DNA of 64,000 nucleotides from Nitrospira sp. (GTDB taxonomy: Bacteria > Nitrospirota > Nitrospiria > Nitrospirales > Nitrospiraceae), in the NCBI GenBank assembly GCA_005116895.1, contig SWDO01000005.1, positions 349,678-413,677 of the forward strand, read 5' to 3'. Both the position numbers and the translations under genes were made by a program. The notes beneath the pieces were generated by a model. The model did no database searches. It saw only the letters and a list, made by a program, of their open reading frames with translations, and was not told where the DNA came from. Shown piece by piece: positions 57,200-61,298 of this stretch. Position 1 is the stretch's first letter, and every line of letters begins with the position of its first letter.

Positions 57200-57388
57200 C
57201 CGACTTCCTCCCTCACATGAACTATTTTATGCATGGACCCTACTCGCCAGGGGCAAAACAAGTCAATCGTGGCACGGCTACGGATGAAGTCTGATTATCT
57301 GCAGGGTAGATGATCAGAAGAAAAGAGGGGAATAGAGAAGGCACAGATGCGGAGTCACCGGTAAGAAAGCGGCGTGCTGTCAGATACC

Positions 57389-57417
57389 TTGACTTTGGTA
57401 TGGCAAATTAATACCAT
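57389..57417 (+). promoter_or_regulatory. Candidate sigma70-type promoter for the guanidine operon
   Basis: ttgact - 17 nt - taccat, just upstream of the riboswitch aptamer; overlaps TGGTAT-N9-ATACCA dyad. Confidence 0.5.
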
Positions 57418-57439
57418 ACGACCGAAATCGTTCCAAAAG

Positions 57440-57552
57440 GAAAACTAGGGTTCCGGCTTTCTGTAAACGGAAGTGTCTGGTCCGAGAGTTTCAGGCTTCG
57501 TTGCTTGTTGTTATGACGAAGCTCCACGGAGGGATAAAAGCCCGGGAGATCA
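57440..57552 (+). ncRNA. Guanidine-I (ykkC-yxkD, subtype 1) riboswitch
   Basis: Contains conserved ykkC blocks actagggttccg, gtctggtccgagag, acggagggataaaagcccgggaga. Confidence 0.92.
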
Positions 57553-57607
57553 TGTACTGAGGTACATGGCCTTTTGGGAAAATAACCTTCCAGCAGGAGG
57601 CTTCGTT

Positions 57608-57685
57608 ATGCATTTCTATCCACAAATTTTCTCCATACCGGATCAGTCAGGCTTGCTGCCGAGTCAGCGAGGGCTGCCATGGTAA
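57608..57685 (+). CDS. Putative 25-aa leader peptide (MHFYPQIFSIPDQSGLLPSQRGLPW)
   Basis: Strong SD aggagg (57595-57600) 7 nt upstream of ATG; stop overlaps permease start (ATGGTAA). Confidence 0.55.
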   Translation: MHFYPQIFSIPDQSGLLPSQRGLPW

Positions 57686-59157
57686 GCCACGAAAGTCCGG
57701 ATCCGGTTTTTCCTGCTCTCGCTAGGAATCCTCCCGAGACCCTTCACCGCAGCCTCAGTCTCTGGAACAGCCTGACCATCGGCTTCGCCACGGTTTCACC
57801 GGTCGCTGGGCTCTACGCCATTATCGGTGTGCAGACCATCGTCACCGGTGGCGGGTGGTTTCCGGCACTGGCGCTCTGTTTGGTGATGCAGTTGTTGGTC
57901 GCGACCGTCTATGCGGAGTTGTCCTCGCAGATTCCGATCGCGGGAGGGGCGTACAAATGGGCTAGGCAGCTGGGAGGCGCGACCACCGGCACCTACGCCG
58001 GGGCCATCTATGTCAGCTCCACGATCGCCATGCTCACCACGACCGCCTATACCGGCGGGGTGTGGCTGGCGATTTTCTTCGGGTCAGGAGGTGGACCAGG
58101 AGTCACCCTCGTGATGTGGGGCGCGGTCTTTCTGCTCGTCTGCACCGTCCTCAATCTCGTCCACGTCTCGGTCTTTAAGTATCTCATTTCCCTAGGGGTC
58201 TATGCGGAAATTGTCGGCTCGTTCGGCGTCGCGCTGTTGTTGTTTTTCTTCTTCCGGCAGCACGAGTTCTCTGAACTGTTCGCCCATCTGGGGACCGGAA
58301 CCGCTCCCAGCCAGACCGCCGCGTTTCTCGCGGCACTTGCGATTTCCGGATGGGCATTCATCGGCTTCGATTCCTGCTCGACCATCGCCGAAGAAACCCG
58401 TGAGCCCAAGCGGATGGTGCCTCGCGCGATCTTTTTCTCTCTTTGCCTGGTGGGCAGCGTGGTGCTCTTCAACTCTGCCGCCCTGACGCTGAGCTTCAAC
58501 CGCGAAACCTTACAACAGACGAGCGCCGCGTCCGATCCTGTCACACCGGTGATCGTCGCCAACTTTGGCGCCTGGGCGGAGACCCCGTTTCTGGCCATTG
58601 TCATGATCGCATTCCTGGCGTGCGGATCCTCCATGGTGCAGTACACCTCCCGGATCGTGTTTTCCATGGCACGTGAAGGCAGCATGCCCGCCGTCCTCAG
58701 CCGGGTCACCGCGGCCGGAGCGCCGCACAATGCCGTGCTGTTCACGGTGCTGTTGGCCACGCTTGGATTGCTCTTCGGGCTGAATGATGAAGCGGTCGCC
58801 ACGGTCCTGGCCTTCGGGACAGGCGGGTTGTACGCCATGTTTGCGATGACCACCGGAGTGGGACTCTACACCCGTCTCACGGGGCGCTGGGATCCCTCAT
58901 TGGGCGAATTAAAGCTGGGCGCCTGGGGAGTATTGATCAATACGGCAGCGTTTCTCTGGTCGGTGTTTGAGTTCATCAACATCGCATGGCCACGTCCCTA
59001 TGCTGTGTCACCGGATGCCCCCTGGTGGCAACTCTGGGCCGTTCCGCTGGTGCTCGGAACTATTCTCGGTGTGACCACGCTGTATCTCCTGGTTGGGAGA
59101 TCGACAGGGAGCGACGCTCTACAGAGTCCACAGGAGTCGACCGCAACTGAAGAATGA
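57679..59157 (+). CDS. APC-superfamily permease, candidate guanidine (or amino acid/amine) transporter
   Basis: LHRSLSLWNSLTIGFATVSPVAGLYAIIG...AELSSQIPIAGGAYKWARQLGG; downstream of the guanidine-I riboswitch. Confidence 0.88.
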   Translation: MVSHESPDPVFPALARNPPETLHRSLSLWNSLTIGFATVSPVAGLYAIIGVQTIVTGGGWFPALALCLVMQLLVATVYAELSSQIPIAGGAYKWARQLGGATTGTYAGAIYVSSTIAMLTTTAYTGGVWLAIFFGSGGGPGVTLVMWGAVFLLVCTVLNLVHVSVFKYLISLGVYAEIVGSFGVALLLFFFFRQHEFSELFAHLGTGTAPSQTAAFLAALAISGWAFIGFDSCSTIAEETREPKRMVPRAIFFSLCLVGSVVLFNSAALTLSFNRETLQQTSAASDPVTPVIVANFGAWAETPFLAIVMIAFLACGSSMVQYTSRIVFSMAREGSMPAVLSRVTAAGAPHNAVLFTVLLATLGLLFGLNDEAVATVLAFGTGGLYAMFAMTTGVGLYTRLTGRWDPSLGELKLGAWGVLINTAAFLWSVFEFINIAWPRPYAVSPDAPWWQLWAVPLVLGTILGVTTLYLLVGRSTGSDALQSPQESTATEE

Positions 59158-59245
59158 AAGACAGGCCGTTCACCACGGCTTGTATTGCAAGAAGCGTTTC
59201 GGAGAGAGAGTCAGAATCCATTCATCCGGTAGAAAAGGAGCACGC

Positions 59246-60394
59246 ATGGCAAAGAAGAGAACATACCAAGGCACGGTTCCCCTGCATGACAACTACGGGC
59301 CGGAGGCGAAGTTCGCCGTGGAAGCGGAGGCGCTGCTGCCGACGACGAAATATGAAGAAGAAGTGGCCCGGGGCCTTGAATTGGGCCTGCAGGGGGCCGA
59401 TTCCATCAAGGATCGCCGCATTCCCACCTTTAGTCGCGGAGAGCTGCCGCATTTTGCGGGCATCAATACCTTCACCAAAGCGCCGTATGTCGAAGATGTC
59501 CGCAAGTGCGGGGAGTACGATGTCGCCATTCTCGGGGCGCCGTTTGACGGGGGGACCACCTATCGGGCCGGTACCAGGTTCGGACCCCAGGGCATTCGCA
59601 AGATCTCCGCGTTGTACGGCACCTATAGCTTCGAGCTCGGCGTGGATCTCAGAGAGTCGATCTCCATGTGCGATCTCGGTGACGTGATCACTATCCCCGG
59701 CAACATCGAGAAGACCTTCGACCAGGTCAGCAAGGGGGTCGGGCATGTCTATGCCAGCGGGGCCTTTCCCGTGGTACTGGGCGGGGACCATTCGCTTGGC
59801 TTTGCCACCGTGCGAGGCGTGGCTCAGAATATGAACGGCAAGAAGCTTGGCATCCTTCATTTCGATCGGCACGTGGACACACAGGAGACCGATCTCGATG
59901 AACGCATGCATACCACGCCCTGGTTTCATGCAACGAACATTCCGAACGTGCCGGCCAAGAATCTGGTGCAGATCGGCATCGGCGGCTGGCAAGCGCCCAG
60001 ACCCGGCGTGAAGTCCGGGCGAGAGCGTCAGACGAGCATCATGACTGTCACTGACTGCGTCGAAATGGGCATCGAGAATGCCGCGAAACAGGCCCTCGAA
60101 GTGGCGTTTGACGGGGTGGATGCGGTGTGGCTGAGCTTCGATGTGGATTGCTTGGATGCCGCCTTCGTGCCAGGCACCGGTTGGCCGGAACCGGGCGGGT
60201 TTCTGCCGCGTGAAGTGCTGAAGTTTCTCCAAATCATCGCGGACACGAAGCCGCTGGCAGGCATGGAAATCGTCGAATGTTCACCGCCCTACGACGCGGC
60301 GGAGATCACGAGCCTCATGGCCACCAGGGTGATCTGCGACGTGTTGGCTTGCCAGGTGCGATCCGGCAACTTGGCGAAGCGGAAGAAGGGCTGA
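59246..60394 (+). CDS. Arginase/agmatinase-family hydrolase, candidate guanidine hydrolase (guanidinase)
   Basis: GGDHSLGF, HFDRHVDTQ, SFDVDCLDAAFVPGTGWPEPGG metal-binding motifs, N-terminal extension, operon with guanidine-I riboswitch. Confidence 0.85.
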   Translation: MAKKRTYQGTVPLHDNYGPEAKFAVEAEALLPTTKYEEEVARGLELGLQGADSIKDRRIPTFSRGELPHFAGINTFTKAPYVEDVRKCGEYDVAILGAPFDGGTTYRAGTRFGPQGIRKISALYGTYSFELGVDLRESISMCDLGDVITIPGNIEKTFDQVSKGVGHVYASGAFPVVLGGDHSLGFATVRGVAQNMNGKKLGILHFDRHVDTQETDLDERMHTTPWFHATNIPNVPAKNLVQIGIGGWQAPRPGVKSGRERQTSIMTVTDCVEMGIENAAKQALEVAFDGVDAVWLSFDVDCLDAAFVPGTGWPEPGGFLPREVLKFLQIIADTKPLAGMEIVECSPPYDAAEITSLMATRVICDVLACQVRSGNLAKRKKG

Positions 60395-60402
60395 GAGGTG
60401 CT

Positions 60403-60429
60403 GAGGGGCTTGCTTTGCGCAAGCCCCTC
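60403..60429 (+). terminator. Stem-loop downstream of guanidine hydrolase (candidate terminator/3' hairpin)
   Basis: gaggggcttgc-tttgc-gcaagcccctc: 11-bp perfect stem 9 nt after the stop; no U-tract. Confidence 0.6.
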
Positions 60430-60849: not shown

Positions 60850-61059
60850 ATGATGCACGAACTGATCTTCGTGATTGAAGATGCCCCCGAGGGTGGGTTT
60901 ATCGCGCGTGCGCTCGGGGTGTCGATTTATACCGAAGCGGACTCCATGGCTGAGTTGCCGGAGAAAGTCCGTGATGCCGTCCGTTGTCATTTCGAGGAAG
61001 GAAAAGCTCCGAAGGTCGTACGCTTGCACCATGTCCGGGAGGAAGTCATCGCCGTATGA
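60850..61059 (+). CDS. HicB-like antitoxin-family protein
   Basis: HELIFVIEDAPEGGFIARALGVSIYTEADSMAELPEKVRDAVRCHF. Confidence 0.7.
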   Translation: MMHELIFVIEDAPEGGFIARALGVSIYTEADSMAELPEKVRDAVRCHFEEGKAPKVVRLHHVREEVIAV

Positions 61060-61298
61060 GGCTTCCCCGCGATCTGTCGGGATCCGCTCTAGCTGACGCA
61101 CTTCACAAACTGGGATATACCGCCACTGGCCAAACAGGGAGCCATCTGAGGCTCACGACTCAGGAATGCGGTGAGCATCACCTGACAATCCCTCAACATA
61201 GTCCTCTCCGTATCGGAACGCTTTCCGCAATCCTCGCAGACGTTGCGAAGCACTTCGAACTTAGTCGAGAACAGTTGCTCAAGAGGCTGTTCGGCTGA
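61056..61298 (+). CDS. HicA-like toxin-family (dsRBD-like) protein
   Basis: MRLPRDLSGSALADALHKLGYTATGQTGSHLRLT...HHLTIPQHSPLRIGTLSAILADVAKHFELSREQLLKRLFG; ATGA overlap with hicB-like gene. Confidence 0.78.
   Translation: MRLPRDLSGSALADALHKLGYTATGQTGSHLRLTTQECGEHHLTIPQHSPLRIGTLSAILADVAKHFELSREQLLKRLFG

Follow-up and report, generated by a model that had tools for sequence, protein, structure and literature searches.

The 64 kb window analysed here, i.e., the whole stretch of DNA examined (Nitrospira sp., assembly GCA_005116895.1, contig SWDO01000005.1, positions 349,678-413,677 of the forward strand), carries what we describe with good confidence as a comammox guanidine-utilisation operon, with a probable translational ON switch coupled to its permease gene. 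The operon itself is a known system and extends a published comammox trait by one genome; the triad of riboswitch, APC permease, and guanidinase was reported from most comammox group A genomes by Palatinszky et al. 2024 (PMC11410670), and the survey was repeated across Nitrospirales in 2025 (PMC12342949). What is new is modest: the RNA switch appears to hide a ribosome-binding site (RBS) instead of stopping transcription. For the guanidine-I leaders of the Nitrospira family, we consider it probable that the expression platform is translational, with aptamer helix P2 acting on the Shine-Dalgarno (SD) sequence and AUG of an unconstrained leader ORF that overlaps, or is fused to, the permease gene. 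An initial annotation, made from the sequence alone, had placed a guanidine-I riboswitch before an APC permease and an arginase-family hydrolase, a layout borne out by Rfam, ORF, and Pfam analysis; it did not mention that the operon had been described before, nor the leader ORF or the likelihood that control is translational.

The aptamer occupies 57434..57550 (+) and matches the guanidine-I (ykkC subtype 1) family RF00442 over its full length (1-107/107) at 87.1 bits (E 3.3e-14), against a gathering score of 63 in cmscan; the riboswitch class assigned initially is thus upheld, with the start coordinate given then lying a few bases inside the element and the three conserved blocks quoted for it all found in the sequence. 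Guanidine-I was the single Rfam match in the whole 64 kb window, and permissive settings returned no other riboswitch family at 57300-57720 (~420 bases around the aptamer). Nor did a better-scoring rival ykkC subtype appear in the Rfam scan, in whose library separate ppGpp/PRPP models were not confirmed. Subtype 1 is recognised by an adenosine (A46), not a pyrimidine, in the binding pocket and by the lack of a terminal P0 helix (PMC6031431); here, the sequence reads GGTCCGAGAG, and the aptamer ends display no obvious complementarity to each other. Free guanidinium is the predicted ligand. Directly upstream lies a candidate sigma-70-type promoter (TTGACT-17-TACCAT; 57389..57417, +), detected by a consensus scan with 9/12 matches, which alone are no proof of function. 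A small S30AE/HPF-like ribosome-associated protein (PF02482; 56885-57199, -) is encoded divergently from the operon.

The leader scan found no intrinsic terminator with a U-tract from the aptamer to the start of the permease, and the hairpin 3' of the aptamer is followed only by UUUUGGG. The linker at 57551..57595 (+) instead holds, according to leader folding and alignment, a conserved hairpin (CATGTAC/GTACATG) and a pyrimidine-rich stretch, the latter pairing with the aptamer GGAGGG in the unbound fold. The 3' strand of P2 together with its loop (57512..57525, +) is complementary to the SD and AUG of the leader ORF, and the minimum-energy fold pairs 57512-57525 with GGAGGCUUCGUUAUG at 57596-57610 (+), i.e., with the GGAGG and AUG that sequence, alignment, and pair counts point to as the putative target of the riboswitch. 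Across an alignment of 45 distinct leaders, taken from Nitrospira and a single related genus, 97.3% of cells in this anti-RBS helix are standard pairs, with double compensatory changes at 4 pairs; two adjacent A-U pairs have become G-C in one leader (L144), a single A-U pair has become G-C in another (L124), and a C-G pair has become U-A in a third (L073). Sliding the partner by 1-3 columns as a control lowers pairing to 33-51%. The duplex has a mean energy of -17.6 kcal/mol versus -7.4 for a shuffled RBS, and own partners outperformed species-permuted partners in 5000/5000 permutations, a count that, with independence inflated by kinship, should not be read as a true probability. UUAUG is complementary to the P2 loop CAUAA; pairing between the two in the anti-RBS model would account for the conservation of a loop that the aptamer does not obviously need. 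Counting against the model, an upstream CCUUCC still pairs with part of the SD in folding models in which the aptamer pairs are forced.

Published work would favour a textbook guanidine-I switch, in which guanidine-dependent transcription termination sets expression and complementarity to the SD is incidental. The class is reported to be usually transcriptional (PMC12186494), the comammox switch is described as suppressing transcription (PMC11410670), and guanidinase and permease transcripts in sludge metatranscriptomes rise after guanidine, with a log2 fold change of about 2.7 (PMC11410670). We nonetheless judge this unlikely for the present leader. The competing U-tract terminator by which a transcription-terminating guanidine-I switch is recognised is missing from aptamer to permease; the helix that is conserved and covaries is the one running from the aptamer to the SD and AUG, as befits a translational, RBS-sequestering ON switch. 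No report of a translational guanidine-I switch or of a comammox leader peptide was found in the open-licence literature, a search that leaves most subscription papers outside. Separately, one riboswitch copy (L125, G007:C42) retains an intact aptamer and the permease start, with a deletion removing the regulated SD and the leader start; this copy is possibly decoupled.

The AUG predicted to be sequestered opens a 25-codon leader ORF in the window (57608..57685, +; MHFYPQIFSIPDQSGLLPSQRGLPW followed by a stop codon), the stop of which overlaps the permease start (ATGGTAA). Unfused leader ORFs of 25-30 codons are present in 36/44 leaders and end no more than 8 bases from the permease start in all 36; in the other 8/44, the ORF and the permease form one continuous frame. 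The encoded peptide is not conserved (omega about 0.9, versus 0.02 in the permease control), and no selection on its amino-acid sequence was detected. The same omega, together with an SD-like GAGGG of the permease's own, is compatible with the leader ORF being a chance open frame, with the permease translated solely from its own SD at 57679. Chance, however, sits poorly with 36/36 unfused leaders stopping on the permease start despite differing in length, with the 8 fusions, and with the fact that the switch-sequestered SD and AUG belong to the leader ORF; we regard it as improbable, and translational coupling without a role for the peptide as the simplest reading. Within the leader ORF, a weakly supported hairpin lies over the permease SD (GAGGG; 57648..57676, +), as scored by pairing conservation: 90.9% of cells are paired over 36 leaders against 18-47% in slid controls, with little covariation, and 6/7 pairs form in the window.

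Both protein-coding genes of the operon are intact and begin with ATG. The second encodes a 382-aa GdmH-type guanidinase of the arginase family (59246..60394, +; Pfam Arginase 1.4e-75), and the end coordinate of the initial annotation (60429) takes in a hairpin 3' of its stop codon. End to end, the protein is 94% identical to PDB 9fek, deposited as "Putative agmatinase 2", and 66% identical to Synechocystis GdmH (7esr). As described in PMC11410670, 9FEK is the N. inopinata guanidinase, which was crystallised and assayed and which converts guanidine to urea and ammonia in a Ni-dependent manner; the same source reports growth of N. inopinata on guanidine along with the kinetics and structure of the enzyme. 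The protein retains all four published specificity residues (Thr105, His222, Trp313, and Glu344, N. inopinata numbering) and the Asp and His residues expected to bind metal. Among NCBIfam models, only generic agmatinase-type ones match, all below their cut-offs, and the gene is therefore easily mislabelled. These matches, and the trace agmatine activity reported for the N. inopinata enzyme (PMC11410670), are what could be said for an agmatinase or another guanidino-compound hydrolase with guanidine not its main substrate. Given 94% identity to an enzyme proven to be a guanidinase, intact Thr105 and Trp313, and a position behind a guanidine riboswitch, that reading is barely credible, and the guanidine hydrolase proposed in the initial annotation gains support.

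Nitrospira relatives of the guanidinase are many and mostly 90-98% identical, followed by an actinobacterial and chloroflexal group at 82-85%. Of the actinobacterial guanidinases in this range (L076-L107), most lie directly behind a guanidine-I riboswitch without T-tracts, a pattern suggestive of gene transfer across phyla and, perhaps, of translational control in that group too. P2-SD complementarity in these actinobacterial relatives showed no consistent excess over shuffled controls; with T-tracts absent there too, translational guanidine-I control may be wider. A second arginase homologue in the genome of the window was set aside at only 26% identity. Elsewhere, in a second operon copy (L071), the permease frame is broken (169 aa) and the guanidinase match runs no further than residue 333; the MAG with this copy also carries a full-length guanidinase (L056).

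The first gene encodes a 492-aa APC-superfamily permease (57679..59157, +; PF13520, AA_permease_2, 1.4e-35), for which the nearest NCBIfam model, below cut-off, is TIGR03428 ("permease, urea carboxylase system"). It holds the same operon position as the published permease (PMC11410670) and is probably a guanidine importer, with both substrate and direction deduced from context. Exporters are established under many guanidine-I riboswitches, and export for detoxification would be the converse reading. This is very unlikely, given that an APC permease, not an SMR exporter, is paired here with a catabolic enzyme and that N. inopinata, with the same gene set, takes up and grows on guanidine (PMC11410670).

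The remainder of the assembly (3.3 Mb, 35 contigs) places the operon in its host. An AMO family match (1.5e-43) identifies amoA, with amoB downstream, and a urease alpha subunit is encoded in the same assembly (3.4e-56); the host is therefore a comammox Nitrospira. Together with the published occurrence of the triad in comammox, this supports the comammox link drawn initially. A run of N breaks the amoA gene (L003:1397-1496), so that the genome could be overlooked when comammox are typed automatically by amoA. No Ni chaperones specific to the guanidinase were found in the genome, only a hydrogenase-linked hypA and a urease-linked protein. The former (L109, on C30 of the own genome at about 251 kb) has as neighbours a protease for hydrogenase maturation, hypF, and the last part of the large-subunit gene of a NiFe hydrogenase, and is a candidate Ni source for the guanidinase; the latter is a single cobW-family protein near urease that is UreG-like by position. 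Just downstream of the guanidinase, at 60852-61298 (+), a HicB-like ORF without a Pfam match adjoins a HicA-type toxin ORF (PF07927, 34.8 bits), likely a HicBA-type toxin-antitoxin pair.

Comparative sequence evidence points to translational switching and coupling, and a mechanism can be assembled from elements read directly in the DNA, namely the aptamer, both genes, the active-site residues, the amo and urease genes, the anti-RBS helix, and the overlap of leader ORF and permease. In the absence of guanidine, the P2 3' strand would pair with the SD and AUG at 57596-57610, blocking translation; once free guanidinium is bound by the aptamer, P2 would close on itself and the start site would be freed. 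Ribosomes would then translate the 25-codon leader ORF, terminate on top of the AUG of the permease gene, and start again at that codon. Imported by the permease, guanidine would be split by the Ni-dependent guanidinase into urea and ammonia, and the urease encoded elsewhere would convert urea to two more ammonia for nitrification. Catalysis, growth on guanidine, and guanidine-dependent induction enter this scheme from the N. inopinata publications. A rise in transcripts with guanidine is unexpected for a purely translational switch, and mRNA decay or Rho termination would be needed to account for it.

If the proposed mechanism holds, the published transcriptional description of the comammox switch would be corrected, and these nitrifiers of global importance would control guanidine induction at translation initiation. 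The reading of transcript data as evidence for guanidine use would change accordingly, and the operon would illustrate in compact form how a riboswitch can act via a coupling leader ORF.

Among known systems, the closest is the N. inopinata operon (PMC11410670), which shares the gene order, a 94% identical enzyme, a urease located elsewhere in the genome, and a comammox host; it comes from a different species or MAG, and in the consulted portion of that paper its switch is treated as transcriptional and a leader ORF goes unmentioned. Synechocystis GdmH (Sll1077; PDB 7oi1, 7esr) shares the enzyme family, metal ligands, and specificity residues at 66% identity. Uptake there is by an ABC transporter, with dedicated chaperones for Ni also encoded (PMC11410670), whereas the Nitrospira operon contains an APC permease and lacks chaperone genes. 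Terminator-type bacterial guanidine-I riboswitches (PMC12186494) have the same aptamer and the same ON logic, but their alternative structure is a terminator, in place of the helix that here would cover the SD and AUG. Guanidine-II riboswitches, finally, are translational ON switches with the same ligand and the same general output, i.e., SD release, built on an aptamer unrelated to the one described here.
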